A stretch of DNA of 64,000 bases from Candidatus Poribacteria bacterium (GTDB taxonomy: Bacteria; Abyssobacteria; SURF-5), in the NCBI GenBank assembly GCA_016215705.1, contig JACRIR010000207.1, forward strand, positions 19,886-83,885, in the 5' to 3' direction. Position numbers and translations under genes: made by a program. Shown here in pieces: positions 39,066-61,676 of the stretch. Every line of letters begins with the position of its first letter. Position 1 is the stretch's first letter. The notes under the pieces are model-generated. The model did not search any database. It had not been told where the DNA came from and saw only the letters and a program-made list of their open reading frames with translations.

Positions 39066-40436
39066 CTATTTCAGCCCGAACTTCTGGAGTCGGTAGCGGA
39101 GAGTGTCGCGTGAGATGCCGAGAAGCTCGGCAGCGCGGGTCTGGTTGCCGCCGGCCATGCTCATAGCCTTGCGAATGAGTTCTCTCTCGACTTCCTCGAG
39201 AGAAAGCCCTGTTGTGGGAAACTCGTCGACAAGCTTGATCATCTGGCTTCCCTCGACAAACTGGGTTATCTCAGGTGGAAGACCTTGAACCTCAATGCGG
39301 TCGCCGGTCTCGAGAATGAGCACTCTCTCGACAATGTTCCTTAGCTCGCGCACGTTCCCCGGCCAAGGGTATCGCTTGAGCAACTCGAGCGCCTCGGGCG
39401 AGATGCCGGTCACGGATTTCTTGAACTCGGCGTTGAATCTGTCGATGAAGAATTGAACCAGCTTGGGAATGTCCTCCGGATGTTCACGCAACGGCGGAAG
39501 ATATATGGGGATTACCTGAAGCCGGTAGAAGAGATCATTGCGGAACCTGCCGGTCGCAACCTCGGTTTTCAAATCCTTATTTGTTGCGGCTATAATGCGG
39601 ACGTCGACCGAAATCTCGACCGTGCCGCCGACTCTGCGGAATCGCTTGCTCTCGATGGCTTTCAGCAGCTTACCCTGGAGCGTGAGCGGCATGTCGCCTA
39701 TCTCATCGAGATAAATAGTGCCGCCTTCGGCAAGCTCGAACAGTCCCTTTTTCGTGGCGCTCGCGCCGGTAAAGGCGCCTTTCTCATGGCCGAAAAGCTC
39801 GCTCTCGAGCAAATGCTCGGGAAACGCGGAACAATTGATGTCGAGAAATACGGCCTCCGAGCGGTCGCTCAAGGAATGAATCGTCCGCGCAATGAGGTCC
39901 TTGCCCGTTCCGCTTTCTCCCTGAAGCAAGACGGTCGAGAACTTGCTTGCAGCAACTTTACTGACCGTCGAGAAGACGTCTTGCATCGATGCGGCATCGC
40001 CAATCAAATTCTCGAACGCATAGCGTCCTTTCAACTCATCTTTCAAACTGGTGAGCTCGCGCTTCATCTTCGCAGTTTCAAGCGCCATCTCGATCCGGAG
40101 TTTGACGTCTTCGATCTCGAAAGGCTTGCAAATGTAATCGACTGCGCCCTCCTTGACCGCCCGCACCGCTGTCTTTACGTCGCCCATCCCGGTCACAATG
40201 ATGAAAAGCGGGCTTAAGCCTTTTTTCCTGGCTACTTCCATCACCTTGAAGCCGTCGATCCCGGGCATTTTCAAATCGAGCAAAACGGCGTCGGGCTCAT
40301 GCTGCTCCATCATCGCGAGGGCCTCCTCGCCGGACGCCGCCTGCGCCGTTTCATAGCCTGCCTGCCGAAGGTCTTTCTCGAGTGACCAACGTATCAGATG
40401 TTCGTCGTCTACGACCAGTATCCTGAACTTTCCCAT
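39066..40436 (-). CDS. Sigma-54-dependent NtrC-type response regulator
   Basis: Receiver ([14 protein letters not shown]), AAA+ [21 protein letters not shown] motif, Fis-type [28 protein letters not shown]. Confidence 0.95.
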
Positions 40437-41033: not shown

Positions 41034-42992
41034 TCAATTCCTCTCGGGGGCCGCAGAGCTTGAAGCGGGCACTCCCTCCGCCATTTCCTCGCTGGCTACG
41101 GGCAGAATCACGGTGAAAGTGCTTCCTTCGTCCACCTTGCTGTCGACCAGTATCTCCCCGCCGTGGTCGCGGATGATTCCGTAACTTATCGAGAGTCCGA
41201 GTCCGGTTCCTTCTCCGGGCTCGCGGGTCGTGAAAAACGGATCAAATATCTTGTCCATTATTTCCGGCTTGATCCCCTCGCCGGTATCTTTTACGGAGGC
41301 GCGCACCAGACGGTCTTCCTTGTCTGCGCTTGTTCCGACAATCAGCTTGCCGCCTCTCGACATCGCCTTGCGCGCATTCACGATTATGTTGAGAAAAACC
41401 TGCTGTAGCTCGTTCGAGTCGCCCTTGACCGGTGGCAGATCCTCGGCAAAATGAGTCTCCACCTCGACGTTGCCCTTTTTGAGATTGCTTTGCATGAACC
41501 CGAGGGTATCTCTAACAATGCTATTGAGATCGAGCAACGCAAAATTCTTCTCGGAGACGCGGGCGAACGTCAGCAGGCTCCCTATGATGGATTTGCATCT
41601 CCGTATTTCGCGTTCCACGTACACGAGATTCTTCTCAAAACTTTCTGCCTCCTCATCGCTGAGGTGCTTCAGGCCGCGCGCGCGCACAGCGTCCGCCAAT
41701 ACCTGTAGGAAGGCATATATGCCGGCGAGCGGATTATTCAGCTCGTGGGCAAGGCCCGCAGCCAGTTCACCGATAGCGGCGAGCTTGGTGGACTGAATCA
41801 GTTTCGCCTGCGCGTCCGCCAATTGCCTTCCCCTCTCCGCCACACGCTCCTCGAGGGTCTGATTCCATCGCTCGAGCTCTTCCCTGTATTTCTTCAAGTC
41901 GGCAACCATCTTGTTAAAGGACTCGCTGAGTTCGCCCACCTCGTCACCGGTCCGGACCGGGACATACTGGTCAAGGTCGCCTTCCGCCACGGCTGCGCTT
42001 GCCCGCGAAAGTTCCCGAATTGGGCCCACTGTTCTCGACACGGTCAGAATGAAGATCGGCACAATGACTAAAAGCGTCAAGCCGACAACTATGACGGTTG
42101 TAGTAATAATGTTCCGCTTGGCCCGTGACAAGTCATCGACTGACTCGAAGATGGCAACCAGAGCTTCCTTTCTGAAATTGACGATCAAAGGAGAAAGTAT
42201 CATCCTCACGGAATGATCCCCGCAATCGAATTCCGCAAAATAAGGCACATCTTCATTCAGTATATGGCCCAGGAGTTTTGGAGTGAAAATCTTCCTGATC
42301 TCCTCATCGCATGCATCCGGGCCGGAGCTTGATTCGACGAGCTCTCCCCGGTAATACACCTGAACCCTGTAAGCCCCCGTCTTCTGACGCAAATCCTGCA
42401 AAAACTCCTTGTCAATCGGCCTCGACACGGTTATTACCGAGCGGCTGCCCGCGCGCCCCTCTATCGGGGCCACGGCGGCAAACTCAAGAGTTTTCTTTCC
42501 GTCCTCCAGGCGGGCGACAAGGTCGGTCGCCCTAATACCAAGCAGGCCAAGACGGTTCAGGCCGGGGTTGACCGAGGCAAGGTCGCTCCCGCCGCCTATG
42601 TTGGACAGAATCTTGTTTTCTCTTAGGAACTCCAGCAGGTAGATGATAACGAGACGGCTGTCTCTCGCTTCGGAAATGTGTCCGGCGAGACGCTCCGTAT
42701 CGGCCATGAATTGCGCATAGAACGCAAGGCTTTTCTCTATGTCCACAACGATTTCCTGCGTCAGACGGATGTCGCTTTTCAGCTTATCATTGACCCTTGC
42801 CTCAACGTTGGCCGAAACCAGGTCGATCATGGTATAGATGATGAGCGCCCCTATCAGCACCATCACGGCGACAAACGGCAAGAAAATCTTGTTCAGCACC
42901 GTGTTGCTGCTTGAAAAGAATTTTTTTGTGGAATCTCTCATGCCGCCACTAGTCCTGCGAAATCGGAAACCCGGCTTATTCGGGGACACCAT
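41034..42992 (-). CDS. Membrane sensor histidine kinase with dCache-like sensor and HAMP
   Basis: TM + extracytoplasmic domain + HAMP (RTVGPIRELSRASAAVAEGDLDQYVPVRTGDEVGELSESFNKM) + GELAAGLAHELNNPLAGIYAFLQVL + EGTGLGLSISYGIIRDHGG. Confidence 0.93.
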   Translation of the reverse strand: MVSPNKPGFRFRRTSGGMRDSTKKFFSSSNTVLNKIFLPFVAVMVLIGALIIYTMIDLVSANVEARVNDKLKSDIRLTQEIVVDIEKSLAFYAQFMADTERLAGHISEARDSRLVIIYLLEFLRENKILSNIGGGSDLASVNPGLNRLGLLGIRATDLVARLEDGKKTLEFAAVAPIEGRAGSRSVITVSRPIDKEFLQDLRQKTGAYRVQVYYRGELVESSSGPDACDEEIRKIFTPKLLGHILNEDVPYFAEFDCGDHSVRMILSPLIVNFRKEALVAIFESVDDLSRAKRNIITTTVIVVGLTLLVIVPIFILTVSRTVGPIRELSRASAAVAEGDLDQYVPVRTGDEVGELSESFNKMVADLKKYREELERWNQTLEERVAERGRQLADAQAKLIQSTKLAAIGELAAGLAHELNNPLAGIYAFLQVLADAVRARGLKHLSDEEAESFEKNLVYVEREIRRCKSIIGSLLTFARVSEKNFALLDLNSIVRDTLGFMQSNLKKGNVEVETHFAEDLPPVKGDSNELQQVFLNIIVNARKAMSRGGKLIVGTSADKEDRLVRASVKDTGEGIKPEIMDKIFDPFFTTREPGEGTGLGLSISYGIIRDHGGEILVDSKVDEGSTFTVILPVASEEMAEGVPASSSAAPERN

Positions 42993-45018: not shown

Positions 45019-45058
45019 AAAATTGGGGACACGATGCCGCATCATGTCCCCAATTTTT
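45019..45058. repeat. P1 palindrome
   Basis: aaaattggggacacgatgccgcatcatgtccccaattttt. Confidence 0.85.
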
Positions 45059-45251: not shown

Positions 45252-46784
45252 CTAGCGTATATGGCACTCGTAACAGAGTTCGCCGCCAATGACGCCCGCA
45301 CGCAGCAGGAATACAATATCGCCGCTGTGGGGCGTGTGACACGTTGTGCAGCCCACTTCACTCTCCCGCGTGAAGTTCAGCTTGTTATTTGGGGGAACCT
45401 CGAAAGTCGAGGACGCTTTCACACCCGTTGGATGCGGGAATTCTTTATGTCCTTTAGGGTGGCACAACGCGCACAAACGCGCGGATTCCATTGTCAGGTT
45501 GGCATCTCCCGCACCTGAGTGGGGCATATGACACACCGAACAGTTTCCTTCCCTATACGGATAGTGCACGAACCGATTGATCTGCTTCTGTCGTGACTCA
45601 TGGCAGCGAAAACATAACGCTTCTCCCTCTTCTTTGAGGAGAGCTTTGTCTTTCGCCATATGGGGCTTGTGGCAGGCAACACATCCTTGCTGCGCCGCCG
45701 TATGGGGATGATTCGTCTCGAGAAGTTTCGCTATAGGCTGATGACACTTGAGACAAGTGTCTTTCTCTGCATTCGCCAGGATGCCCTGGTTGTCCGAGCC
45801 ATGAGGGTTGTGACACTCCGTGCACTTCCCATCCGAGAATGGCGGGTGCAGGTGGTCGCCCTCCGCAGGCTTGATCGATTCGCCGTGGCATCGGGCGCAA
45901 AGGCTTGCCCCCGTCTCGATAAGCAGAGAGGGATTGGTTGTTGCGTGCGGCCCGTGGCAATTCAGGCAATTCTCACCGGCTGGAAGATGGGCGAACTTGG
46001 ACTTTAGGGAGGTCTCGATATCAGCATGGCATGGAGTGCAAAGCTGCGCCCCGACGGCCTCCAGCTTAATCTCGCCGGGGGTCTCCGATATTACGTGACA
46101 GCTATCACACATTCCCTCCGCAAACGGAGGATGAGCATTCTCGATAATAAGCTTACGGTTCGGCGAGAAGTGTCCCCGGTGACACGAGGCGCATTCCGAA
46201 TCCGCCTTGAGCAGGTTTATGTGCGTTTTGTTGAATGCCGCATCTGCAACGTCGTGACATTTGGAACAAAGATTCCGGGATTTATCAAGCAGAAGCGCCC
46301 GGTTGGGCGATATGTGAGGATTGTGACACGTCAGGCATTCTCCCTCCTCGAACGGAGCGTGCACCGAAAGAGGTCTCTTCTCGACGGGCATACTCTCGTG
46401 ACAAGTAAAGCAAAGCGCCGGAACTCGGTCCGCCAGCATTTTCGGATAATCGGACGCATGAGGATTGTGACACGTCAGGCAGTCCTCCTTAACCGGAGCA
46501 TGCACGATGTTTTCTCCTGTTTCAGCCGCGAAATCCCGGTGGCAGACCGTACAACGGGTGGTCCCCTCTTCCACGAAGCCGAACGTATCGGCGTTGTGAC
46601 AAGCATCGCATTGACCAGCCTCGAACGGATAGTGCACATACTTCTTCCGCAATGCCACTTTCATGTCGTCATGACAATCCAGGCAATTGGCTTTCGATGG
46701 GTCGCGGCCGCGATTGAAGCCGGTTGCGCCGAAAAATACAAACAGAAGAAAGAACGAAACAACAAGGTTTTTTCGCGATATCAA
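45252..46784 (-). CDS. 20-heme c-type cytochrome (paired CxxCH repeats)
   Basis: 20 CxxCH motifs counted; alternating CLTCHNPHAS / LCFTCHE repeats; N-terminal signal segment. Confidence 0.93.
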   Translation of the reverse strand: MISRKNLVVSFFLLFVFFGATGFNRGRDPSKANCLDCHDDMKVALRKKYVHYPFEAGQCDACHNADTFGFVEEGTTRCTVCHRDFAAETGENIVHAPVKEDCLTCHNPHASDYPKMLADRVPALCFTCHESMPVEKRPLSVHAPFEEGECLTCHNPHISPNRALLLDKSRNLCSKCHDVADAAFNKTHINLLKADSECASCHRGHFSPNRKLIIENAHPPFAEGMCDSCHVISETPGEIKLEAVGAQLCTPCHADIETSLKSKFAHLPAGENCLNCHGPHATTNPSLLIETGASLCARCHGESIKPAEGDHLHPPFSDGKCTECHNPHGSDNQGILANAEKDTCLKCHQPIAKLLETNHPHTAAQQGCVACHKPHMAKDKALLKEEGEALCFRCHESRQKQINRFVHYPYREGNCSVCHMPHSGAGDANLTMESARLCALCHPKGHKEFPHPTGVKASSTFEVPPNNKLNFTRESEVGCTTCHTPHSGDIVFLLRAGVIGGELCYECHIR

Positions 46785-46842: not shown

Positions 46843-47631
46843 CTATCGAGTCACTCCCTTAATATCTTCCCACTCTTTCAATACGGCGCCGTGCGCTCTC
46901 TCTTTCTCTGCCTGAATGTCTCCGCCTTCAGGCTTCACGGGCGCGGTCGGAAGCACGGGCGCCTCGGATGGCTTCGCCGCCTCCAGGCCGGGCTTGATGG
47001 CCGCTTTGGTCGGTTTAGCCTTGCCGGCGTACAGTTCCTTCTTTTCCGGATACATTGCCACGCCAAGCGCCTCGATCAGGTCATCGGCCACAATCTCAGA
47101 GAGCGTTACCACCGAGTTCACTCTCCCTATTCCGAACACCGTTTCCTTGAAATCTCCTTGCAGCGAGTGAGTTGCCGCCCAAACGATCTCGCCCGTGTTT
47201 GCATCCACGAGCCGCAGCGCCATCGAGACAGTGGGCAACTGCCCCAGGTCCGTCGTGATGTAAGTGTATTCATTCACGCTCCCGAATATCATTCCATCCG
47301 CAGCAAGCTGGCGGCTGGCCTCGCGGATGGTGTCGAGATCGAGCTCGCCTGCTACCCGTATGCGGGACCGGAGGATGAATTGCTCGACCTCCCCCGGCTC
47401 GACCAGATTCACAAGATTCGAGTTGTAGAGCTTTGAGACCAATGAAGCCGTCGCCCGGTCACCGGCATCGGGCGTCCCGCTGAGGTTTTCCAGCGGAAAA
47501 ACCGCGATGCGATTGAGACGGGCGGCCGCGGGAGCGGGCCGCACCAGAAATTGCCTCGATTGGGAACAACCCGATAACATAAGGGCGAACACAATAATCC
47601 GGCAGACAATCGCGCGTTTGGTTTTCATCAT
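46843..47631 (-). CDS. CsgG/GNA1162-like lipoprotein, copy 1
   Basis: Lipobox MLSGC; LNRIAVFPLENLSGTPDAGDRATASLVSKLYNSNLVNLVEPGEVEQFI...FGSVNEYTY. Confidence 0.65.
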   Translation of the reverse strand: MMKTKRAIVCRIIVFALMLSGCSQSRQFLVRPAPAAARLNRIAVFPLENLSGTPDAGDRATASLVSKLYNSNLVNLVEPGEVEQFILRSRIRVAGELDLDTIREASRQLAADGMIFGSVNEYTYITTDLGQLPTVSMALRLVDANTGEIVWAATHSLQGDFKETVFGIGRVNSVVTLSEIVADDLIEALGVAMYPEKKELYAGKAKPTKAAIKPGLEAAKPSEAPVLPTAPVKPEGGDIQAEKERAHGAVLKEWEDIKGVTR

Positions 47632-48338
47632 CTCACCATGGTTATCAGTTTGTGACAGACCCGTTGTGTGAGCACGGAGAAAAGCTGCTCCTGGCCGACG
47701 TCAACGACCGGAACCTTGGGACTTCCCTCATCGGAAGCGGTCCCCATGAAGATTATAGTGCCTGTGTTCACGTCCACCCATCGCACGTTGACCGACACGA
47801 CCGGATACGTTTCGTTCCTCACTCGCTCTTGACCATATTCGAGGACGGTTCCAAATATGAGGGTGTCGGCCTTCAGCGAGTTGCCGATCTTCCTGACATC
47901 GTCTTGGCTCAGCTTCCCTCCCGTTATATTGCTCTCACGGAGAACACGGGATACCTCTCCGGGCTCAACGACGTCGACATCTATGTCCATCAACAGCGCG
48001 GTAATGTAAATTGTCGTCACCTTCTCGGCCGCAAACTGTGTTCCGGTATAGTTGTCAAAAGGGATCACTGCCACACGCGTGATTGCGCTCAAATCCGCAT
48101 CCGGATGCCTGAAAGATTGTGCACGTCTGCTCGGAAAAACAGAAGGCGCGTCCCTCGAGCCGCTTTTTGCCGCGAAGTTTAAACCCTGCTCTCGGGCCGT
48201 TCGTGAAGGTTCTTCTTCTGAGCTTTCCTTTGCGCTATGTTCGTTGGACCGTTTCTGTGTGCCCGTCGCACAGCCCGCGACGAGAGCCAACACGACCAGG
48301 CAATAGAGAACACGTGTTTGGAAAATATGCGATTTCAC
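47628..48338 (-). CDS. CsgG/GNA1162-like lipoprotein, copy 2
   Basis: Lipobox LVAGC; ITRVAVIPFDNYTGTQFAAEKVTTIYITALLMDIDVDVVEPGEVSRVL...FGTVLEYGQ. Paralog of the previous gene. Confidence 0.65.
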   Translation of the reverse strand: MKSHIFQTRVLYCLVVLALVAGCATGTQKRSNEHSAKESSEEEPSRTAREQGLNFAAKSGSRDAPSVFPSRRAQSFRHPDADLSAITRVAVIPFDNYTGTQFAAEKVTTIYITALLMDIDVDVVEPGEVSRVLRESNITGGKLSQDDVRKIGNSLKADTLIFGTVLEYGQERVRNETYPVVSVNVRWVDVNTGTIIFMGTASDEGSPKVPVVDVGQEQLFSVLTQRVCHKLITMVR

Positions 48339-48498: not shown

Positions 48499-50952
48499 TC
48501 AAAATATCTTCGTTAGCTCCACAAAAAGAAACTTGCTGTCGGTTTCCTCCCCCTCCTCGATGTCGTAGTTGACGGACATCAAAGTATCCCAGTAGAAAGG
48601 GAATTTAGCCTGAGATCTGAAGCTCAGGACTTTCTCTTCATTGGTCCCACCCCGGTAGCCCAAAAAGAACGTCAACTTATCGTTCATTCTCCACACAAGG
48701 TCTAAGAAATAGCTCAGGTTGTCAGTCGTCTCGCCGGCCGATTTGCTTTTTATGAAGTCCGCGTTCGTAAAGAGATCGAGGCGATGACTTATTGCCCACG
48801 CAAAATCCACACTTGCGAGCACAGTCTCCGAACTGGCATCGGGTTGACCGGCAAACGCGCTGTCACTCGTATTATACTCAGCCGAAGTGTTTACTGTCAT
48901 GCTCGCTCTCGGTTTAAGCCTCAGATTGCCGCGAACACGCCGGCTGTTGGTCTCTCCGTCAGACTCGAAGTCCTGTGTCTGACTAGTGCTCAATTGCAGG
49001 TTAAAATCAACGCCGCGGTATATTCTCAGGTCGGTCGCCGCGGCGAAGGTGTCCGTTTCCAGAATCTTTTCGCTGTCCTGCTCGTTCTGCTGGTTCGAAT
49101 AGGTGAAGTTCACGGTGGCCCGGGTGGTGGGAAGCAGATTGAGGCTCAGTGTCGTAAACGTACTGTCCTCGTCCGGTCCCACATTCGAGTCCAGGTTGTC
49201 GAGAGTGTAAGAGGCCGACATATTCACTTTGGGCACGGGCTGAAGACTTGCCGTGTACGTTTGAGTGAGTTCGTCACGGTCGGTTTCAACATCCCCTGTC
49301 TCTGTGCTGAAAAGCTGCAATCTGTAGAGAGAAGAAAGCGATACCCAGCGATAAGGCTGGAACCGGAGTTGGGCGTTGACGTCATGGTTCAGAGTTGAGA
49401 CAAGGCCCTGTCCGGTGTCCTTGTCCTCTTCATCCGACTTGAAAACTTCGTAGTCTATCGACCCGAAGATTCCCTGGAATAACTCACGGGCATAGAGCAC
49501 GCTGAAAGAATCCGACACAAGACGCGTGCTCCGGCTCCGTTCTTCAGCATTTACGGCCCCAACCTCAAACAAAAAAACACCGTTGTTGGTCAAGACTTGC
49601 AGCCTGCTGTTGCCGGTGTCGGCCACGACAACATCTCCGCCAGGCGTGACGGCGATTCCTTGCGGAGCATTGAACTGTCCCGGCCCTGCCCCCAGTTCTC
49701 CGAATTCGTCAAGTAACAAACCCGTTGTCGTGAAAACCTGAACCCTGCTGTTGCCCCTGTCCGTCACATACACCCGGTTCGCGAAATCCACCGCCACATC
49801 AGTTGGATTCTGGAACTGACCGGGCGCCGACCCGAATGTGCCCCATTCGGTCACAAACGCGCCCGTCGTAGTGAATACCTGGATGCGATGATCGAGCGTG
49901 TCCGCCACGAACACCAGGGTCCCATTCGATGTTATACCCGAAGGCGACGAAAAATTGCCCGGACCGGCTCCGGTTGTGCCGAAAGAGAACAAGAACACAC
50001 CATCGGCCGTGAATTTCTGAACGCGGTCGTTCCCCTGGTCGGTCACATACACGCCGGTGCTGTCCACGGCGACTCCATACGGGGTATCAAATTCGCCTGG
50101 CCCGATTCCGAATGTGCCCCATTCTGATATGAATCTCCCCGTCAGGTCAAACCGCTGAACGCGGTTGTTTCCGGAATCGACAACGTAGATGAAGCTCGGG
50201 CTTACGTCTATTCCCAGAGGGTTTATGAACAATCCCTCGCCGGAGCCAAAGCCGCCAAATTCACCCAGAAACACGCCTGACGGACTGAACCTGAATACCA
50301 GGTTTGCAGCGGAGTCGGTCACGTAGATGATTCCCGCCTGGTCAACTGCAGCACCCGAGACTCCTTGCAGGTTTATCGTGGCGAGTGTCGTCAGCTCATT
50401 GTCGAACTCATTCTCCCGATGCGAATATCTCAACGAGAGCGGACCCTTCTGGTAAGTCGACCGCAAGCCCCAGTCGGTTTCCACAAAGTCGGTCTGCGGC
50501 TGAGGCAGGTCATCCTTGGATTCCGTTCTCGAGAAATCCAGCGTCAGGTCCGGATATTCTGGATCAGGCTTGAAGGTGAACGTAGTGAAGAGAGTGTCGG
50601 TCGTCTGGGTGAATCCGCCCGGCTCATCGTTTATCTGCTCGAACTCGCGGTATTCAAGAAGCCACCGGTATTCCGGCCCGGACAGGTTGAAACCGAATAA
50701 GGGCCTGATCTCCTCGGCGTCGGGATTCTTCTGTTCCTGCTGTGAGTACTGGAAGTAAAGGTCGAGCAGATCCACATTGCTTAAAGCCGTATTCCAGTCA
50801 AGCCGGAGCCTTTGTTCCGAGGCCGAGAAGGTCTCCCCATCCTGTTCCTGTTTACGGTAGTTAACAGTTGCCGACCCGGTCAATTCGCCAGCTCCCGCCG
50901 CCATTGGCCACATCAACAACACGGCAATGAGGAAAAGCCGACTCTTTTTCAT
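48499..50952 (-). CDS. Outer-membrane beta-barrel-like protein with inserted ~6-blade NHL propeller
   Basis: Signal peptide; amphipathic strand-rich N- and C-regions; C-terminal ...DSKFLFVELTKIF (terminal Phe); NHL repeats roughly aa 200-476 of the 827-aa ORF. Confidence 0.82.
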   Translation of the reverse strand: MKKSRLFLIAVLLMWPMAAGAGELTGSATVNYRKQEQDGETFSASEQRLRLDWNTALSNVDLLDLYFQYSQQEQKNPDAEEIRPLFGFNLSGPEYRWLLEYREFEQINDEPGGFTQTTDTLFTTFTFKPDPEYPDLTLDFSRTESKDDLPQPQTDFVETDWGLRSTYQKGPLSLRYSHRENEFDNELTTLATINLQGVSGAAVDQAGIIYVTDSAANLVFRFSPSGVFLGEFGGFGSGEGLFINPLGIDVSPSFIYVVDSGNNRVQRFDLTGRFISEWGTFGIGPGEFDTPYGVAVDSTGVYVTDQGNDRVQKFTADGVFLFSFGTTGAGPGNFSSPSGITSNGTLVFVADTLDHRIQVFTTTGAFVTEWGTFGSAPGQFQNPTDVAVDFANRVYVTDRGNSRVQVFTTTGLLLDEFGELGAGPGQFNAPQGIAVTPGGDVVVADTGNSRLQVLTNNGVFLFEVGAVNAEERSRSTRLVSDSFSVLYARELFQGIFGSIDYEVFKSDEEDKDTGQGLVSTLNHDVNAQLRFQPYRWVSLSSLYRLQLFSTETGDVETDRDELTQTYTASLQPVPKVNMSASYTLDNLDSNVGPDEDSTFTTLSLNLLPTTRATVNFTYSNQQNEQDSEKILETDTFAAATDLRIYRGVDFNLQLSTSQTQDFESDGETNSRRVRGNLRLKPRASMTVNTSAEYNTSDSAFAGQPDASSETVLASVDFAWAISHRLDLFTNADFIKSKSAGETTDNLSYFLDLVWRMNDKLTFFLGYRGGTNEEKVLSFRSQAKFPFYWDTLMSVNYDIEEGEETDSKFLFVELTKIF

Positions 50953-51015
50953 GCATGAGGTAGCGATTCTGTGTAGTCGCACATTCGATTTCTGGTTGAC
51001 TGGCGCTTCTTGTTG

Positions 51016-51077: not shown

Positions 51078-52553
51078 CTAATGACAAACGACCGTACAGT
51101 CGCCTTCGTCCCAGTTGCCGCTAGGACCCCAGTTCGGGACGTCGCTCTGTTTCAAGAGCACTGTGCCGCCGAGCAATCGAGCCGGATCGCTAGAGGTTAC
51201 TAGCAGCGCCCGTCGATTGATGCCATGCGGGACCTTGCTGTGACAATCCATGCAGCCGATAGGTCTGTTCGCAACCGGATTGTCCTCGTTCGCGTGCAAT
51301 CCGTGGAGATTCTCTCCAAAATTATTCCTCGAAAAGCCCGTGTTACGATTGTCGTTCCTTTGGGCATAAGTGGTAAAGTCATGACACAGGAAGCACAGGT
51401 GACTGCTTGTGTTCTGAGTGCGCTGGCCCGAAGTCACGTCCCATCGAGCTTTCACGAGGAACGGCAACTGGGAGCCATGCGGCCCTTTTGGGTCATTCGC
51501 ATTGCTGCTGCCGTGACAGTCTGTGCAGACCATCTGAAAGTCCCATCGCCAGCCGTTCACGAAAACGCCGATGCCGTTCAAATTCGGAGCCTGGATAACA
51601 TTGTGCGAACTGACATTGTTCGGATTGAACTCGATGGACGGATCCGTTTGCTGGCCGCCCGAAGGCGCAAACGGCGGAAATGAACCATAGGCCCAGTACG
51701 AATGACACTTGAAACAAAGCTGATACTCGAACTGGATGTCGAATATCTGGCCACGCGGCTGAAACGTCGGAAACGTGTCAGGCAGGCTCCCGTAATTGGC
51801 CTCGATGAAGCTCGAGCCTCTCAAAACCCCGCCGGCGCGGTTCGAGCCCTGAGTATGCAAGTCCCTTGTGTGGACGTGAGAGTTGTGGCAGTCAGCGCAC
51901 TCGTTGTGCCGATTCTGACCTGAAAAACTATCCGGGATTATCTCCTCGGATGCGTGGTGGCGTCCCTCCAACTGACTGTTCGTCATCTGGTGCGTATACT
52001 GGTAATTCATCTGAGTGTCGATCTTCTCCTGCGCCGAGCCGGCAACCTTGTGGCAGCCCAGACAAAGCTCCTCCTCACGCTTGAATAGAAGCGTTGGCAT
52101 CAATCCTTTAGAATCGCCCCACCCGTGGGGCGTGTGGCAGTTGACACATTTCCCCTTGGCGTCGGGTTCCATGCGCGCCGGCGGCTCCGGCCCCGGCCAT
52201 CGCATGAGAGAGTCGTCTTCGTGAATTGACTGCTCGTACACCGACGAGCCCCTATAGATGGCGTTCGAGCTCTGACCGAAATGGCATGTGAAACAAAGCT
52301 GATTGTTGTCCGCTGTCCAGAGAGCAAAGTCGGTCGTTGTGCCCCCTGCGCCATGCATCGAATGACAATGGCCGCAATCACCCCGTGGAAGCGCGGAATC
52401 CCGCCTCACGCCACTCGTCGGGTCCCCGTGTCGCGTGGATGAGTACAATCCGCCGCGCGCCCATACGACGTAAGAGCTGCCCAGTATGAGGATGACAACC
52501 GCAATTAGTGCAGCGCTTGCTTTGGCGATTCTTCTCAAGACTCTATTTTCCAT
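51078..52553 (-). CDS. Decaheme c-type cytochrome (9 CxxCH + one C-terminal CxxxCH)
   Basis: CGHCH, CFTCH, CVNCH, CLGCH, CADCH, CFKCH, CTDCH, CFLCH, CMDCH, and terminal CTVVCH*. Confidence 0.9.
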   Translation of the reverse strand: MENRVLRRIAKASAALIAVVILILGSSYVVWARGGLYSSTRHGDPTSGVRRDSALPRGDCGHCHSMHGAGGTTTDFALWTADNNQLCFTCHFGQSSNAIYRGSSVYEQSIHEDDSLMRWPGPEPPARMEPDAKGKCVNCHTPHGWGDSKGLMPTLLFKREEELCLGCHKVAGSAQEKIDTQMNYQYTHQMTNSQLEGRHHASEEIIPDSFSGQNRHNECADCHNSHVHTRDLHTQGSNRAGGVLRGSSFIEANYGSLPDTFPTFQPRGQIFDIQFEYQLCFKCHSYWAYGSFPPFAPSGGQQTDPSIEFNPNNVSSHNVIQAPNLNGIGVFVNGWRWDFQMVCTDCHGSSNANDPKGPHGSQLPFLVKARWDVTSGQRTQNTSSHLCFLCHDFTTYAQRNDNRNTGFSRNNFGENLHGLHANEDNPVANRPIGCMDCHSKVPHGINRRALLVTSSDPARLLGGTVLLKQSDVPNWGPSGNWDEGDCTVVCH

Positions 52554-52801: not shown

Positions 52802-53812
52802 TCACTGGTTGTGACATTGTTGGCATGGGGCCATTGCGTCAGCGATATTCCCGGGAGACTTGAATGGCCACGTCGCTCCGGCCTCGTAAGGGCTCCCGTG
52901 CGCAAAATGACAAGTTTCACAAAAGACTTCGTTGGTCGGAGAGACTAGTCGGGCCGCCTCATAGTTCGGCGCTGACGGCGTCTGGAAACGCACCCTCGGA
53001 ATACCCGGAGCGCCGTCTCCCGTCGCCGGACCAAAGCCCGAGCCGGTCCCGGCAAGCCAATGCTGCTCATCCACGTGGAGGCCGGCGCCGCTCGCAATGC
53101 TTACGTCTGCCGGATGCGCCTGAAAATGCGCGGGCAGCGTGCCCAAAGGGTTCGGAAGCGCCCGGTCATGGCACTCTGCGCACCACTTCGACATATCCGA
53201 GCGATAACTAATGTTCGACAGCCTGTATGCCTGGCCCGGATTCCTCCCGTCAGGACGAACCTGCTCGAATACGGTATCCATCGGCAAAGGAGGATTGCTA
53301 AGGACTACAGGGGTCCCCGCTCCGCTTCCCGGGCGGCTCTTGAGATTCCTGTAGTTCTCGTTCCCATGTGGATCGTGGCAACTTGTGCAACTAAGTATAC
53401 TGGCTGCCATGCCGCTTAACGGAACCTGAGCCGGCAAAAGGCCGAGGTCATGCCCCTTCGCGCTCTGAATCCCGCCGCTGTATTCAAAGAATCCTCCGGC
53501 CGAAAATTCATCGGGCGAATAGGAAGTGGATACCGGCGTCAAGACATCCGGCGCATCCACGTCCGAACCATCGTGACAGTTCAGGCACAGCTTGGTAGAC
53601 GATGACGCAAGAAGAAGTTTTGCAAATGGTCCGCCCGGCTCGGCCCCCACCGGAGGCCTGCCGTGCTGGCTGAAGTGGGTCGTGTGACAGTCCGAGCAAA
53701 CTTGCTGCTCAACGTGGTATTCTCCGCCTGCAACCGGGTCGGAATAGGCCGTCGTTAGGAAAATAGATAAAAGCAGCAGCGATAATCTTCGCAACACAAG
53801 CAAGGCGATCAC
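52802..53812 (-). CDS. Hexaheme c-type cytochrome, divergent OmcS-like layout
   Basis: CSDCH, CLNCH, CTSCH (CHDPHGNENYR), CAECH (MSKWCAECH), CETCH (CHFAHGSPYEAG), CQQCH. Confidence 0.88.
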   Translation of the reverse strand: MIALLVLRRLSLLLLSIFLTTAYSDPVAGGEYHVEQQVCSDCHTTHFSQHGRPPVGAEPGGPFAKLLLASSSTKLCLNCHDGSDVDAPDVLTPVSTSYSPDEFSAGGFFEYSGGIQSAKGHDLGLLPAQVPLSGMAASILSCTSCHDPHGNENYRNLKSRPGSGAGTPVVLSNPPLPMDTVFEQVRPDGRNPGQAYRLSNISYRSDMSKWCAECHDRALPNPLGTLPAHFQAHPADVSIASGAGLHVDEQHWLAGTGSGFGPATGDGAPGIPRVRFQTPSAPNYEAARLVSPTNEVFCETCHFAHGSPYEAGATWPFKSPGNIADAMAPCQQCHNQ

Positions 53813-53982: not shown

Positions 53983-54936
53983 CTAAGGCTTCCTTGATAT
54001 CTCGAAAGCCTGAAGCCTGGATGCCCCTTTCTCAAGAACATACAGAATCCCTTTTCCGAATGCGATATCTATTGGATAGAAAAGCTCTCCGTCACCCATA
54101 CCCGTAATACCCCATCGAGAGAGGAATTCGCCCCTCGGATCGAAGACCTTGATCTCGTGTCTGAAACTGTCGGCTATCCAGAGATTTCCTTCGGGACCGA
54201 TCGCCACTCCCGTCGGAAAAGAAAACTGATCTTCATTTGAACCGTGTTGTCCGAAGCTCCTCAAGTGGTGGCCGTTGGCATCGAAAACATGCACAGCCAA
54301 TCCTTGAGAGCTTAGTATGTATATATTGCCGACGCCGTCGACCTCGACGTCCTGAACCTTCCACTGAGGCTCGCGTGATCCGGGCGTCTGCTGTATCTGT
54401 CGCGTCATGTAGTCCGAACCAGAAATAATCAGGACCCTTGGTTCGGCCCTGTCTGCCGCATAAATATTGCCTTTGCCGTCAACGATGATCCTTCCCGGCA
54501 GCGGAGAAGTCTCATCGTGTGTTTGAGGGACTATGGGTGGAAGCGGGCTCCCGTTGAAACTAAGCCGCTTGATCTGGCGCGTTCCTATCTCCGTGAGATA
54601 TATTCCCTCATCTTTTCCAAACGCAGCGCCAATGGGACTTTGGATGCCTGCCACCCGCCCAACGCTCTTCACAAGAACCCCGTGCGCGCTGAGAATACAA
54701 AGACGATCATTCCCTGTGTCGGCAATCAGGATATCTCCGGTCTCTCTCGACACAGCCAACCCCTGCGGATCGCGCAAGTTGGCGCCGTCGCTGAGGCGGG
54801 AGACGGAAAAAAGAAAATGCAAATTATCGAACGATTGGACGCTGGTGCTGCAGAGCAGAAGCGAGAAAGTTATGATGAATGCCGTGGCAGATCGCCTTTT
54901 CATGGCTATCCCGTCATTTCCCGTGAAGCTCATCAA
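53983..54936 (-). CDS. Secreted NHL-repeat protein, copy A
   Basis: Repeats such as LRDPQGLAVSRETGDILIADTGNDRLCILSAHG and FSFPTGVAIGPEGNLWIADSFRHEIKVFDPRGEFL. Confidence 0.85.
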   Translation of the reverse strand: MMSFTGNDGIAMKRRSATAFIITFSLLLCSTSVQSFDNLHFLFSVSRLSDGANLRDPQGLAVSRETGDILIADTGNDRLCILSAHGVLVKSVGRVAGIQSPIGAAFGKDEGIYLTEIGTRQIKRLSFNGSPLPPIVPQTHDETSPLPGRIIVDGKGNIYAADRAEPRVLIISGSDYMTRQIQQTPGSREPQWKVQDVEVDGVGNIYILSSQGLAVHVFDANGHHLRSFGQHGSNEDQFSFPTGVAIGPEGNLWIADSFRHEIKVFDPRGEFLSRWGITGMGDGELFYPIDIAFGKGILYVLEKGASRLQAFEISRKP

Positions 54937-55175: not shown

Positions 55176-56240
55176 TCAATCTTGTATGTGGCACTTGTTG
55201 CACAAGCTTCTCTGAGCAGTCAGATCGAGCGGATTGCCGCCGCTCCACTCCGCGAGATAAGGTTCACCTGCGGGATGGCTTGCAGACAATTCCGTGGCTC
55301 TGAAGTCCCAACGGCCCGCATCCGGATACGGAGACGCATGAGCACGGTGACAGGTCAAGCACATGACTTTGCTCGCTGCTGTCGGACCAGTCGTGCTGGT
55401 CGTCGTGTTCGCTGCGTCCTCGAACGGAACCAGGCCCAGGTATGACGTGGACACGTCGCCTGTCAGTACGCCCGTCGTGACATACGCGTTATAATTGCCC
55501 GCGTGGTCGGAGCCGAGGCCCTGATCCGTCGGGTGCACGATATTGGAAGTCATGCCGGAATGGAAATTAGCATGACAGTTCGCGCACCAGTCGCTCATGC
55601 CGCTGATGTAAGCGGTATGTTGCGCATGCTTTTCCGCGCCCGCATCCGCGATCTTGGTTCTGCGCGAATTGCCCGTTGCTGTTGGAGCAGGTTCCGCGAA
55701 GGCGTAATCGCCCGGATAGTTCGCGGCGGTCTCGCTCTCAATGCCGTACAGCAAGCGGAAATTGACGTTTCCGTGCGGATCGTGACAGGAGTTGCAGCCG
55801 AGCTGATCCGAGATGTACGTTCCACCGGGCGCAGTCGTCAGTACTGTATCCGCCGACAAACCGTTACCGGGAGCATTGAGGTTATGCCCATGTTCGCGAC
55901 CGAATATGGTTACACTCGTTCCACCTCCGCCCACATACGACACGTCCGTTTTCGCCCAATAGAAGTCGCCGCCAGGGCCGAGTGACAAACCGTCGGTCGT
56001 CAACTGGCCATAACTGGCATGGCAGGCCAGGCAGGTATCGCTGGGCGAGCCCTTCTTCAACAGGTAAGCGTTGCCTGTTGGATGATCCGCGTCCACAAGC
56101 ACGCCACCCTGGCTGTTATGCATGGTGTGGCATCCGCCGCAGTACGCGACTCCGGCATCATGGAATGCCATGACCGCTGAGGAATAGCCCGCCACAAAGA
56201 GAACCGCCATCATGACTACGAACAGTCTTTTCATTATTCT
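55176..56240 (-). CDS. Secreted hexaheme c-type cytochrome, OmcS-like (paralog of 14629-15687)
   Basis: MKRLFVVMMAVL..FHDAGVAYCGGCHTMHNSQGG; six CxxCH; GREHGHNLNAPGNGL..TTAPGGTY..LGCNSCHDPHGNVNFR; WCANCH; MCLTCHRAHASPYPDAGRWDF; LCNKCHIQD. Start chosen at the MKRLF Met. Confidence 0.88.
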   Translation of the reverse strand, partial: RIMKRLFVVMMAVLFVAGYSSAVMAFHDAGVAYCGGCHTMHNSQGGVLVDADHPTGNAYLLKKGSPSDTCLACHASYGQLTTDGLSLGPGGDFYWAKTDVSYVGGGGTSVTIFGREHGHNLNAPGNGLSADTVLTTAPGGTYISDQLGCNSCHDPHGNVNFRLLYGIESETAANYPGDYAFAEPAPTATGNSRRTKIADAGAEKHAQHTAYISGMSDWCANCHANFHSGMTSNIVHPTDQGLGSDHAGNYNAYVTTGVLTGDVSTSYLGLVPFEDAANTTTSTTGPTAASKVMCLTCHRAHASPYPDAGRWDFRATELSASHPAGEPYLAEWSGGNPLDLTAQRSLCNKCHIQD

Positions 56241-56296: not shown

Positions 56297-57376
56297 TCAT
56301 CGGTTTTCCTCCTTTAGTTTAAGTACCTGCACCTTGTTGCCGAACATCTGGGAAACATAAATCCGTCCATACCTGTCAATTTCCAAACTGTTCGGATAGT
56401 AGAACCATCCCTTGCTCGGGCCCATTCCGCCGAACTCGGTCAGATAATTACCATCCCGGTCATACACCGCGATGCAATGCCTCTGCTTATCAAGCACAAG
56501 GTAACGCCCGCCCTTGTCCACAACCACGTCCACCGGGAACGCCAGCCTCCCGGGGCCGCCACCTTGTATCCCGAAGTTCATCAGATGCTTTCCCTCATTG
56601 TTGAATACGTAAACCGTACCGAGGGTCGCAACCGGAAGATACACTCTGTTATTTTTGTCCACGCTGAGACTTCCGAAAACAGCCTCCTCACGATCCTTAT
56701 CATTCATCGTCGGCATGATCTTGAATCGATACTGCCCATCAGAATCGAACGAAACGATGCAGCCGTGCTTCTGGTCGGATATATAGAGATTGTCCTGTGA
56801 ATCCAGGGCAATATCCGTCGGCTCGCAAGTGTCGCCTTCCGGCAGACCCTTCAGCTCGAGCCGGGAAAGGCGCTTGCCGCGATAATCGAAAACATCTATG
56901 TTTCTGCCGCCAAACCCGCCCTGAAGCACATAGATGTCACCGCTCTTGGTTACGGCCACGTCCAGCGGAACTCCAAGTTCCCCATTCTCGCCGAATTGGA
57001 AAAGCTCCAAGCCTTCCTTCCCGAATATCCGGATGCAATGATTACCCGTGTCCGCTACGTAAATCTCATTTCGCTCCGGATCAGAGAATATCTCACCCTG
57101 GCTCTGAAAATGTGAATCTTCGGTAAGACCTTCAAGGTCATAGAGATATTCGGCCTTTATGTCCAGAACGGCGTAGGCCGATGAAGTCAATGCCATTAAG
57201 ATGAAAAGAGCGGTTATCGCTGCCAGAGCCATGACAACCATCCCGTAGGAACCAGGGATTGCTTCGGCTGCGCAGGCAAAACCAGCATTCCCGCTTCTCG
57301 CCGTTCGCCAGTCCATCTTTTTTGCCGTTTTCTTCATTGAGAACCTTGCTCCAACTGAATGCTCTTCCAAACTCAT
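56297..57376 (-). CDS. NHL-repeat protein, copy B, with N-terminal TM/signal segment
   Basis: FSDPERNEIYVADTGNHCIRIFGKEGLELFQFGENG; LAFPVDVVVDKGGRYLVLDKQRHCIAVYDRDGNYLTEFGG. Confidence 0.85.
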   Translation of the reverse strand: MSLEEHSVGARFSMKKTAKKMDWRTARSGNAGFACAAEAIPGSYGMVVMALAAITALFILMALTSSAYAVLDIKAEYLYDLEGLTEDSHFQSQGEIFSDPERNEIYVADTGNHCIRIFGKEGLELFQFGENGELGVPLDVAVTKSGDIYVLQGGFGGRNIDVFDYRGKRLSRLELKGLPEGDTCEPTDIALDSQDNLYISDQKHGCIVSFDSDGQYRFKIMPTMNDKDREEAVFGSLSVDKNNRVYLPVATLGTVYVFNNEGKHLMNFGIQGGGPGRLAFPVDVVVDKGGRYLVLDKQRHCIAVYDRDGNYLTEFGGMGPSKGWFYYPNSLEIDRYGRIYVSQMFGNKVQVLKLKEENR

Positions 57377-57773: not shown

Positions 57774-59102
57774 TCAAACCTTCTTGTGGCACTGAATGCA
57801 AAGCTCTCGATCACGGTTGTAATAGGTGAGGAATTCCTCATCTGAGGAGTGCGGATCGTGGCAGCTCACACAATCGAGCGTCGAGCCGGTGCGCGGGTCG
57901 AGAACCCCTTTGCCATAGGGATGGCTTGTCTTATGTTCCTCGGCGTGGCATCGCTTGCACAACTCCAGAACCTCAGCCTTCAGCAGTTGGGTCGTGCTTC
58001 CCGCGTGTGGCTCGTGACATAGTTCGCATTGCCCTTTTGCGACCGGATCATGGACCACCTTAAGGCTGAGTTTCTGCTCAAATTCCTTGTGACAATCAGC
58101 GCAAAGGGTGGTCTTGTTCTGCTTCATAAGGAATCTCTCATCCGAGGCATGAGGCGAATGACAAGCGGTGCATTTACCTTGCGTGACAGGGGCGTGGACT
58201 ATGGGCCTTGAGAACTCTTTCCATGCGTCCGCATGACAGGTCCGGCAAAGAGTGTCCTCAGCCTTCACAAGTTTGAAGGGCGTCGGGTTATCCGGCGGCA
58301 AGTGGCAGTACGAGCACAGCTTCTTGGCCATCGGGACGTGTGCGACCTTGCGTGTGAGGTTTCGTTGGGATGACGCATGAGGATCATGGCAATCGGCGCA
58401 TCCTTTGTTCTGGACGGGGTAATTCGCGTGCGCCGTCTTGAAGTTGGGTGTGGCGCCGTTGTGGCACTGGGCGCACAATTCGGAAGGCCCTTTCTTCAGG
58501 AGGTCAGTCCTCGAAGAGCTGTGAACGGAATGGCATTTCAGACATTCGGCGCGGCCGACCGGCTGATGCACGTACTGCTGCGCAAACTTCTCTTTCTCTT
58601 TCTGATGGCAGCCATAACACAGGTCTTTCTGTGGAACACTCAGAAGCTTCGGTTGCAACGAAGCATGCGGCTGGTGACAACTCAAGCACAGTCCATCTTG
58701 CACCGGCTTATGCTCATGCCCGGAGTTGAACTCCGGCGAGTTCTTCTCGTGGCAATCAAAGCAATACTGGTTTCGAGGGCTCAGAACGAGCTTTTGATTG
58801 TTCGAGGCGTGTGGATTGTGGCAGCCGACACAGTTCCCAAGCGCAACCGGCGCGTGAACGTTCTTGCCCTCCCATGTCTGCTTGAGGTCCTTGTGGCAGG
58901 TGTAACAAAGCTTCTCGTAACTCTTCTCTTTTGCTACTTCTTTGCCCGCCCCAAGGACCGGAGCCCCCGCAGAAAATATCCCAACAACGGCAATTGCGGC
59001 AAGAATAAGATATGTAGTTCTCTTTTTCATCCCAATTTTAGATTTCAATGTTTCTTTGTTTTGACCTTTGACCTTCGACTCCGCTAATGACACAGCTCGC
59101 AT
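57774..59102 (-). CDS. 16-heme c-type cytochrome (paired CxxCH repeats)
   Basis: 16 CxxCH motifs counted; CVGCHNPHASNNQKL.../LCYGCHQK alternation; signal segment. Confidence 0.92.
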   Translation of the reverse strand: MRAVSLAESKVKGQNKETLKSKIGMKKRTTYLILAAIAVVGIFSAGAPVLGAGKEVAKEKSYEKLCYTCHKDLKQTWEGKNVHAPVALGNCVGCHNPHASNNQKLVLSPRNQYCFDCHEKNSPEFNSGHEHKPVQDGLCLSCHQPHASLQPKLLSVPQKDLCYGCHQKEKEKFAQQYVHQPVGRAECLKCHSVHSSSRTDLLKKGPSELCAQCHNGATPNFKTAHANYPVQNKGCADCHDPHASSQRNLTRKVAHVPMAKKLCSYCHLPPDNPTPFKLVKAEDTLCRTCHADAWKEFSRPIVHAPVTQGKCTACHSPHASDERFLMKQNKTTLCADCHKEFEQKLSLKVVHDPVAKGQCELCHEPHAGSTTQLLKAEVLELCKRCHAEEHKTSHPYGKGVLDPRTGSTLDCVSCHDPHSSDEEFLTYYNRDRELCIQCHKKV

Positions 59103-61057
59103 TTCGATTCGCCATACGGCTCGTGGACAACTGCCGGTGTCAGTCCCTTTTGCTTCGAGGCGTGCGGATCATGACATCCCGTGCAATCCGCCGAGGCGAC
59201 ATTATAACCCTTGTGCGCCGAAAGGAATTTCGCTTCCGCCGTATCATGACACGTCGCGCACAGCGCGCTCGGGGTTTCTCTTATCAACGTTTTGAACTTG
59301 CTCAAGTGCGGCGTATGGCAAGTCAGGCAAGCGCCTTCGCTCACCGGCGCATGGACGTCATCCTTCTTGAACGCTTCCTGCTCGGCAGTATGGCACTCGA
59401 AGCACAGTGCGGCGCCCGCTTTCTTCAAAATTCGCGCCTCAGACGAGGCGTGCGCCTCATGGCAGCCGAGGCATTCTTTCTTATCGACCGGTTCATGCAG
59501 ATAGCCGCCTGCGGCTTCCGCGGCATAGTCCGCGTGGCACTGGTAGCAAAGCGCGCCCGGGTCGCTCGTCAGCAAACCTTTGTTGTCGCTTGCATGCGAT
59601 TTGTGGCAGGAAGAACAGGCGCCTTCGCCCGCCGGCGCATGAACGCTCTTTTGCTTCAATGATTCTTCCACTTTGTCATGACAGGTATAACAAAGACGCG
59701 GCTCCGCCGATTTCAGGTAATTGGCCTGATCGCCGGAGTGCGGGTCGTGGCACTTGTTGCATTCTCCTGCGACAAAGGGGTCATGGAGGCTCCTGCTCTT
59801 CTCCTGCTCCTTTACGCCCGGGTGGCATTCATAACACAGCGTGAAGAGCTGCCCACGCATGAGCGGTGTGGTTGCCGACGTATGCGGCACGTGGCATTTG
59901 AGGCAATCTCCTTCTTTGAATGGGGTATGAAGTTTGCTCTTCTTGAATTTCGGCTCTTCTTTATGGCAATCCACGCATAGCTTGTCGCGCGGCTGCCGCA
60001 TCAGGAAGGAATATGCGCTCGCATGCGAATCGTGGCAAGCCGAGCAGTTCCCTTCACTGAACGGGACGTGTTCCGAAGGCTGCTTCTTTGTGGGGAAGAC
60101 CGCTTCATCTTTATGGCATTGCTGGCAAAGCAGTTTCTGCCGTTCCTTGAGGAGCGGTCCATACTTCGAGGCGTGAGGCTCATGACAACTCTGACAGGTT
60201 TTATCCTTGAAGGGCGGATGAACGTCCTTGAGATTCAACTTTTGCTTCAGGTCCTCATGACATGAAAGACACAGGTCGCCTTCCGCCTGAGTCAGCTTCG
60301 CTTTTTCTCCGGGAACCGGGGCGGCGTGACAGGCCTGGCATTCTCCGCCCGCCAATGGCGCATGCAAGGACACCTGGAATAGACCTTTGATATCCGAAGA
60401 GTGAGGCTCATGGCACGAATCACACGCTGCCTGCGAAACATCATAGTTCCGGTGCTTTTGAACAAATTCTGTATCCTGCAATTTGTGGCAGTCGGCGCAT
60501 ACGTCAGTCTCTGGTTTTTGCAGCAGCGAGGCGTTTACACCCGCATGCGGCACGTGGCACGAGAGACACTTCTCTTCTCTTACCGGCGTGTGGACTATCG
60601 CCCTGGCGAATTCCTGTTTCTGTCCTCCATGGCAAGTGAGGCAAAGGTTGACACCCTTTTCTTTCAAGAGTTTCGGGTTCCGGCTCGAGTGGGGGTCGTG
60701 GCATTTCCAGCATACCCCCTTCTCATTCTTGAAATGTTGAACGGGCTGCTCGAACATGCCCTTTTGGGCTTCGTGACAGGGGAAACAGAGAGAGGCGTCA
60801 TACTTCTTTAAGAGCAGTACTTTCACCAGCCCGTGGCGATCATGACATTTCTCGCAGTCTTCGGTTTTGAACGGCTGATGCGCCGCCTTGTCGCGGAGTC
60901 GCTCGCGCATTTCCTCATGGCAATCAAGACACGTCTTTCCCAGCCGCCTGCGCGATGACCTTTCGGCTCCATACGCGACCAAAGGCAGCGCAAGCACAAC
61001 AATGAGGAGAGAGAGAATGATTCGACGCGAACGCATTGAGAATTGTCTTGTTGACAA
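59084..61057 (-). CDS. 26-heme c-type cytochrome (paired CxxCH repeats)
   Basis: 26 CxxCH motifs counted in 657 aa; the last (CELCH) is at the C-terminus. Confidence 0.92.
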   Translation of the reverse strand: MSTRQFSMRSRRIILSLLIVVLALPLVAYGAERSSRRRLGKTCLDCHEEMRERLRDKAAHQPFKTEDCEKCHDRHGLVKVLLLKKYDASLCFPCHEAQKGMFEQPVQHFKNEKGVCWKCHDPHSSRNPKLLKEKGVNLCLTCHGGQKQEFARAIVHTPVREEKCLSCHVPHAGVNASLLQKPETDVCADCHKLQDTEFVQKHRNYDVSQAACDSCHEPHSSDIKGLFQVSLHAPLAGGECQACHAAPVPGEKAKLTQAEGDLCLSCHEDLKQKLNLKDVHPPFKDKTCQSCHEPHASKYGPLLKERQKLLCQQCHKDEAVFPTKKQPSEHVPFSEGNCSACHDSHASAYSFLMRQPRDKLCVDCHKEEPKFKKSKLHTPFKEGDCLKCHVPHTSATTPLMRGQLFTLCYECHPGVKEQEKSRSLHDPFVAGECNKCHDPHSGDQANYLKSAEPRLCYTCHDKVEESLKQKSVHAPAGEGACSSCHKSHASDNKGLLTSDPGALCYQCHADYAAEAAGGYLHEPVDKKECLGCHEAHASSEARILKKAGAALCFECHTAEQEAFKKDDVHAPVSEGACLTCHTPHLSKFKTLIRETPSALCATCHDTAEAKFLSAHKGYNVASADCTGCHDPHASKQKGLTPAVVHEPYGESKCELCH

Positions 61058-61058: not shown

Positions 61059-61676
61059 CTATCGACCTTTCGGTCCCGGATTCGAATAGCCTACGTTTTC
61101 ATACGAGATGAACTGAAAGTAGTAGCCCGGGTCGTGAATCGTGTGTGGAATCGGGTCCTGATACAAGACCCATGTCTCATATGACAACTGTTCCTGATAC
61201 GATACTGCCAATTCCACGGCCGGATTGAGGAGCTTATCAGACCTCGACACCGCCTTCCTGGTCTTCAAGCTGATCGCAAAATCGGGAATAAAGCTCTTCA
61301 TTTTGGCCGAGTATTCCGTGTCGGCAATAAAGAACTCTTCCCCGAGCCGTACTCTGTGGTCTTCAAAAGCCGCCACGTCCGAGATGTGACGAACCCGGAT
61401 CGTGAAAAAGGGCCCTGTTGCCTTTGTCGTCGCGCAGGCGGCAACCACAAAAAGGAACGTCCATGCAAGAGTTGCAATTATTATTTGCCGCGTGGTTCGA
61501 CATTCAAGTTTCAAGGGCCGGTCGATCCCCTCATGACAACAGTGTCTCATACAAATATTACGAATCCATGCCTCGACACAATCTTGCGCGTTATGAGCAA
61601 GCATTGTGCCAGCGAGTGTTATGCGACTTTTCGTTGCCTGAAGATGGGCGATGTTTTTCTCGTGCAAGCAAGACAA
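61059..61676 (-). CDS. Putative lipoprotein of unknown function heading the cytochrome cluster
   Basis: Hydrophobic segment ATLAWTFLFVVAACATTK resembles a lipobox. Real start uncertain and probably internal to the ORF. Confidence 0.5.
   Translation of the reverse strand: MSCLHEKNIAHLQATKSRITLAGTMLAHNAQDCVEAWIRNICMRHCCHEGIDRPLKLECRTTRQIIIATLAWTFLFVVAACATTKATGPFFTIRVRHISDVAAFEDHRVRLGEEFFIADTEYSAKMKSFIPDFAISLKTRKAVSRSDKLLNPAVELAVSYQEQLSYETWVLYQDPIPHTIHDPGYYFQFISYENVGYSNPGPKGR

Follow-up and report, generated by a model that had tools for sequence, protein, structure and literature searches.

Does an uncultured bacterium outside Geobacter encode an OmcS-type nanowire subunit together with the genes for its export? 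OmcS nanowires are extracellular helical filaments with a rise of ∼4.7 nm. A first-pass annotation of the 64-kb stretch of DNA analyzed here (the window) had proposed an OmcS-like hexaheme cytochrome in a likely non-Geobacter background. The host proved to be a relative of Candidatus Abyssobacteria SURF_17, from a deep-subsurface lineage without cultured members: its genome falls in one family with SURF_17, whose class NCBI places in Candidatus Hydrogenedentota. Because no match to 16S rRNA was found in the host genome, this placement rests on protein and genome kinship. We estimate a probability of about 0.68 that the gene product is a wire protein of the OmcS type, accompanied by an export set and serving long-range extracellular electron transfer. 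The basis of this reading is the homology to OmcS, the 12 axial-His positions, the clade, the operon synteny and a sigma-54 site.

Identification of an OmcS-type gene

The first-pass annotation named no strand for 55176-56240. Plus-strand coding was ruled out since the translation is interrupted by stops, and the gene was called on the minus strand:

55176..56234, minus strand: OmcS-type hexaheme cytochrome, the main finding (phmmer; 12/12 axial His; ATG with Shine-Dalgarno)

The reading frame extends from the ATG at 56234 to the stop at 55178-55176, with a good to strong Shine-Dalgarno sequence (GGGGGAGG) 5' of the ATG. A longer ORF starting at 56300 overlaps the upstream gene and its start lacks a signal peptide; the MKRLF start was therefore favored. 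The precursor of 352 aa carries a signal peptide; its removal leaves a mature form of 329 aa that begins with FHDAGVAYCGGCHTMHNS. All six CxxCH motifs that had been proposed are present in the minus-strand product, as are the landmarks FHDAGVAYCGGCHTMHNS, GHN, CNSCHDPHG, ISGMSDWCANCH, CLTCHRAHASPY...RWDF and the C-terminal LCNKCHIQD; the landmark given as TLTTAPGGTY reads VLTTAPGGTY in the window protein.

In a phmmer search of all PDB chains, the sole match was OmcS (6EF8/6NEF, E 1.9e-44), with an alignment spanning residues 26-315 in two stretches. The identity of the window protein as an OmcS homologue, rather than a protein matching soluble hexaheme cytochromes only, is thus as the first-pass annotation had proposed. 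OmcE, OmcZ and the archaeal AvECN/PcECN wires, which like OmcS are polymerizing multiheme cytochromes, gave no sequence match to it in the PDB search. The window protein is 42% identical to OmcS over 318 aligned positions, and the full-length homology with six CxxCH in order places it in the OmcS-type sequence family. It has the six CxxCH in the same order as OmcS of Geobacter sulfurreducens (GSU2504; 6EF8, 6NEF) and shares with it FHxxGVAxCxGCHTMHNS, GHN, APGGTY, SCHDPHG, GMSxWCANCH, CLxCHRAHAS and LCNKCH. The two proteins differ in length: mature OmcS has 407 aa and the window protein 329 aa, and most of the 78-residue difference falls in the inter-heme loops. The heme spacings are 36, 79, 70, 75 and 53 in the window protein vs. 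38, 93, 99, 89 and 72 in OmcS, the first (heme 1 to heme 2) being almost the same.

Relatives and distribution

The nearest relatives of the window protein come from Abyssobacteria (61-74%), followed at about 44-58% by sequences from Krumholzibacteria, Zixibacteria, a Fibrobacter-labelled MAG and unnamed bacteria, and then by Desulfuromonadia. In a tree of 60 members, the window protein belongs to a short clade of 28 members (support 100), drawn from Abyssobacteria, Zixibacteria, Krumholzibacteria, and Fibrobacter-labelled and unnamed MAGs. Geobacter-type OmcS sequences form a separate group, also with support 100. The short clade appears to adjoin the Geobacter OmcS clade, with support of only 80 in this tree and 82 in a larger one.

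A first contig scan with narrow patterns gave nine loci, and wider sampling came from genome searches. Matches of any kind were found in 82 of the 277 genomes of the class to which a Desulfuromonas MAG belongs and in 31 of 99 genomes in a Zixibacteria phylum. Long fusions apparent upstream of OmcS in two loci (L052 and L060) were rejected as low-complexity frame read-through with no real domains.

Gene organization of the locus and comparison with the Geobacter osc operon

The main gene lies in a minus-strand locus whose order is small gene, 26-heme, 16-heme, NHL, OmcS, NHL, hexaheme, nine-heme, NHL-inserted barrel, CsgG-like, LpoB/CsgG-like, 20-heme, PstS/PhnD, histidine kinase and sigma-54 regulator. 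In the Desulfuromonadia genomes used for comparison, Osc letters were assigned to the ORFs by gene order and heme count. Besides the main gene, the features are:

61059..61550, minus strand: small conserved first operon gene (64% to SURF_17; ATG at about 61550)
59084..61057, minus strand: 26-heme cytochrome, OscI (GSU2495)-type (26 CxxCH; BLAST to OscI 1e-128)
57774..59102, minus strand: 16-heme cytochrome, OscJ-type (16 CxxCH, as in Desulfuromonadia OscJ; BLAST 1e-83)
56297..57376, minus strand: NHL beta-propeller protein directly upstream of omcS (Pfam NHL 3.2e-22; synteny)
53983..54936, minus strand: second NHL beta-propeller protein (Pfam NHL 2.1e-18)
52802..53812, minus strand: divergent hexaheme OmcS homologue (six CxxCH; CSDCHTTH keeps the H16-type His)
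51078..52553, minus strand: nine-heme cytochrome (CxxCH count; SURF_17 synteny, 69%)
48499..50982, minus strand: predicted outer-membrane beta-barrel of 827 aa with an inserted NHL propeller at about residues 210-480 (NHL 4.6e-34)
47628..48338, minus strand: OscF-type lipoprotein, CsgG/GNA1162-like (BLAST to Desulfuromonadia OscF 6e-18; Pfam CsgG 7.8e-8)
46843..47631, minus strand: OscF/OscG-type lipoprotein, LpoB/CsgG-like (BLAST to OscF 6e-13 and OscG 4e-10; Pfam LpoB 7.4e-8)
45252..46784, minus strand: 20-heme paired-CxxCH cytochrome (20 CxxCH; BLAST to OscI 1e-62)
43187-45151, minus strand: PstS-like and phosphonate-binding-like domain fusion with a single CxxCH, between kinase and cytochromes (kept in SURF_17)
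41034..42992, minus strand: sensor histidine kinase at the operon end (Pfam; 66% in SURF_17)
39066..40436, minus strand: sigma-54-dependent response regulator (Pfam Sigma54_activat 5e-69; 77% in SURF_17)

The giant paired-heme cytochromes that had been noticed nearby were borne out by counts of 26, 16 and 20 CxxCH. In SURF_17 (L004/L117) the whole locus is found in matching order at 58-77% per protein, and a third family genome (L116) keeps the part of the locus that its contig covers. The host draft is split into 270 contigs and its contamination is estimated at 2.44%, which could suggest a misassembly or a contig from another organism; the identical order in the independent SURF_17 MAG and the matching part in the third genome make this very improbable.

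The Geobacter osc operon (GSU2505-GSU2493) includes omcS, omcT, oscC (GSU2501), OscI (GSU2495, reported to have 26 hemes) and OscJ (GSU2494), and the proposed roles are morphology for OscD, secretion for OscE, F and G, and folding for OscH (PMC13194489; PMC12977616). The order that we found in Desulfuromonadia is NHL, hexaheme, propeller, barrel, two CsgG-like lipoproteins, PPIase, 26-heme and 16-heme. By sequence comparison the window locus resembles this nanowire maturation/secretion operon in its synteny. Both contain an NHL gene before the omcS-type gene (as also seen in Desulfuromonadia), a hexaheme paralogue, CsgG-like OscF/OscG, OscI and OscJ. The OscI and OscJ counterparts show strong BLAST matches and identical heme counts, and those of OscF and OscG show clear BLAST matches (best values 6e-18 and 4e-10), with CsgG/LpoB assigned by Pfam on both sides. 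A sigma-54 regulator with a histidine kinase close by is also common to both: in the window the pair stands at the locus end, and in Geobacter GSU2506 and GSU2507 adjoin omcS.

Unlike the osc operon, the window locus has OscI-OscJ ahead of NHL-omcS, an NHL propeller inserted in the barrel instead of a separate OscD (no BLAST match to OscD was found in the locus), and an extra nine-heme cytochrome, 20-heme cytochrome and PstS/PhnD-type protein. The nine-heme cytochrome has no clear counterpart in the Geobacter operon. The barrel protein is a candidate OscE-type pore by its position before OscF/OscG. It gave no BLAST match to OscE, and its C-terminal barrel matched OscE barrels weakly in hhalign (probability 47.7, E 1.9e-4, 107 columns). 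An OscH PPIase is missing from the locus. The lack of OscH in the operon and the weak OscE homology speak against the reading as a wire protein with an export set.

Several observations were made beside this comparison. A 587-aa Rotamase_2 PPIase, weakly OscH-like (E 6e-10), is encoded on a separate 4.3-kb contig (G000:C140, L139) and flanked by multiheme ORFs; the contig may be a broken piece of another osc-type locus. At L122:9434-12727, L124:8361-12005 and L123:12972-16202, a single ORF with 41-42 CxxCH appears to combine the 26- and 16-heme osc cytochromes (26+16=42). The genomes concerned are two uncultured lake bins and a Fibrobacter-labelled genome, all with short-type OmcS genes. In two Desulfuromonadia loci (L113 and L126), the kinase gene is adjacent to one for a PstS-like counterpart of the 43187-45151 fusion. 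A pseudopilin-like protein (N_methyl and DUF1559; 37830-38906, plus strand) adjoins the operon regulator, and a link between pilins and OmcS secretion has been reported for Geobacter.

Additional OmcS homologues and cytochrome loci

The window holds three hexaheme OmcS-type genes: the main gene, 52802-53812 and a solitary paralogue:

14629..15687, plus strand: second OmcS-type hexaheme cytochrome (60% to the main finding; 38.8% to OmcS)

The product of the solitary paralogue has six CxxCH and the H16-type His. Its gene adjoins that of a TetR regulator, and neither osc genes nor a sigma-54 site occur in its vicinity. SURF_17 likewise has a second OmcS-type copy (L005). OmcT, OmcJ and OscC (GSU2501) of Geobacter and the window copies belong to one hexaheme family with multiple copies per genome or operon. 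The Geobacter proteins OmcT, OmcJ and OscC are not known to form wires. OmcS1 and OmcS2 of the window arose within their own lineage (one Abyssobacteria clade).

The divergent homologue 52802..53812 is 30% identical to the main finding, and its sole significant PDB match was OmcS (E 6.9e-6). It sits at the oscC/GSU2501 position and is a candidate oscC orthologue. With two hexaheme OmcS homologues in the same operon, the filament could be formed by the 52802-53812 product (or a mixture), and the main gene could encode a capping or anchoring subunit; Geobacter genomes with the secretion block all have a GSU2501-type gene and not all have omcS (PMC12977616). We consider this arrangement improbable, as the product of the main gene is far nearer to OmcS, for which wires are proven (E 1.9e-44 vs. 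6.9e-6).

Between the two OmcS loci, the region 19991-32561 (plus strand) encodes old-yellow-enzyme-type reductases, EtfA/EtfB, membrane CCG/Fe-S and NrfD-like proteins and a molybdopterin oxidoreductase; this electron-transfer run could be an electron source. In a second cytochrome locus of the host genome (G000:C215; L143, L144), genes for multiheme cytochromes alternate with those for five or more NHL proteins; among the ORFs is one of 1283 aa with 30 CxxCH. The host genome gave 80 paired-CxxCH matches, i.e., many further multiheme cytochromes, and their abundance fits an extracellular-respiration lifestyle.

Conservation of heme ligands and of the inter-subunit histidine

We aligned the 407-residue OmcS with 57 relatives from the window and other genomes (58 members). 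Exactly twelve columns have His in 95-100% of the members, namely the six CxxCH His and H2, H16, H110, H147, H257 and H335 (OmcS numbering). The window protein keeps 12/12, including all the distal positions, and the set fits six bis-His hemes. H16 is reported to be the OmcS ligand donated by the neighboring subunit (Wang et al. 2019). In the window protein it is present within CGGCHTMHN, so the loss of the inter-subunit His, which the first-pass annotation had named as a result that would count against a wire, was not observed. The twelve columns agree in number with the His ligands published for OmcS, eleven from its own subunit and one, for heme 5, from the neighbor (PMC6584659; PMC12203936), and inter-subunit His ligation is also found in OmcE (PMC9473688).

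H16 is invariant in the short clade (29/29 members) and missing in 3 of the 58 alignment members, which indicates that its retention cannot be taken for granted. H16 is also kept in most of those OmcS paralogues that are not known to form filaments; it is therefore a necessary but not a sufficient sign of wires. An earlier report that sequence cannot reliably tell OmcS from its paralogues (PMC12977616) likewise counts against reading the gene as that of a wire protein.

The short clade has two extra conserved His, mature H183 (29/29 members; OmcS has Arg228 there) and H202 (28/29 members), so that a self-ligated monomer is possible. If H183, invariant in the short clade and absent in Geobacter OmcS, or H202 ligated heme 5, the protein might act singly, as a hexaheme carrier outside the cell or in the periplasm or as a terminal reductase, and not polymerize. 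We regard such a protein as rather unlikely, because a monomer with another heme-5 ligand gives no reason for the invariance of H16, and because the gene is located with an osc-type secretion set. AlphaFold2 prediction of the mature window protein from 13 sequences gave no usable monomer model (pLDDT 29, pTM 0.21).

Sigma-54 promoter and regulation

An exact match to the sigma-54 promoter was found at the operon head, about 45 bases ahead of the first operon ATG (61550):

61596..61611, minus strand: sigma-54 -24/-12 promoter TGGCACAATGCTTGCT (exact match)

The TTG listed at 61676 as a start of the first operon gene was rejected because it lies ahead of this promoter. The exact site occurs once in the window vs. 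0.10 expected. Sites with ≤2 mismatches occur at chance frequency (29 seen vs. 30 expected), and only the exact match was therefore used. SURF_17 has an exact site at the equivalent operon head (L004:4662-4677); no exact match was found at the operon head of the third family genome. The response regulator 39066..40436 is the probable regulator of the operon.

Discussion

In the favored reading as a wire protein, the OmcS-type cytochrome would be exported by Sec, as its signal peptide suggests, and receive six c-type hemes in the periplasm. The osc-like secretion set (barrel with propeller and CsgG-like lipoproteins) would then move it through the outer membrane. Subunits would join head to tail, with His16 supplying the missing axial ligand of the neighbor's heme 5, and the resulting continuous heme stack could carry respiratory electrons outward to extracellular acceptors or partners. 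The 26-, 16- and 20-heme cytochromes would most likely act as a periplasmic electron feed or charge store, and the sigma-54 two-component system encoded at the locus end would switch expression. We infer polymerization, ligand-heme pairing (taken from OmcS), the secretion route, electron flow and its direction, and regulation. Caution is needed on the role of the wire, since even in Geobacter there is dispute over what OmcS wires contribute to Fe(III) reduction: in one study, deletion of omcS left Fe(III) oxide reduction unimpaired (PMC11077965).

Published work describes a wide distribution of OmcS homologues with Ppc partners (PMC10954620), and the secretion machinery is called widespread and ancient in the title of Shen et al. 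2025, as cited in PMC12977616. An Abyssubacteria MAG was listed among holders of iron-reduction genes in a set that includes OmcS (PMC12501874). We found no description of an osc-type locus in Abyssobacteria in the literature searched. The expectation that an OmcS-type filament here would extend the class is partly supported: the gene is from a non-Geobacter host, and its locus is osc-like, a resemblance that the first-pass annotation had not named. As a claim of novelty the expectation is weaker than it sounds, because such homologues and osc machinery had already been reported outside Geobacter. What is new here is an Abyssobacteria OmcS-type gene with a variant osc-type operon, of an already known kind.

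Wire-building probably extends across bacteria beyond the cultured examples. Only tentatively do we suggest the more specific model that wires are built by a shortened OmcS lineage spread over candidate phyla beyond Desulfuromonadia, by means of a distinct secretion apparatus that has pore and beta-propeller in one protein and the isomerase encoded elsewhere, with the operon controlled by a sigma-54 two-component system. The NHL protein, the CsgG-like lipoproteins and the 26- and 16-heme cytochromes travel with OmcS across phyla, whereas the separate propeller and the PPIase do not; such a minimal companion list opens to experiment the question of which osc genes wire secretion requires. With its 78 fewer residues, this natural OmcS variant would also be useful for cryo-EM and for work on heterologous wires. 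If the protein polymerizes, the making of cytochrome wires would extend to uncultured bacteria of the subsurface well beyond Desulfuromonadia, which would bear on the question of which organisms take part in mineral reduction and electron exchange in the deep biosphere.
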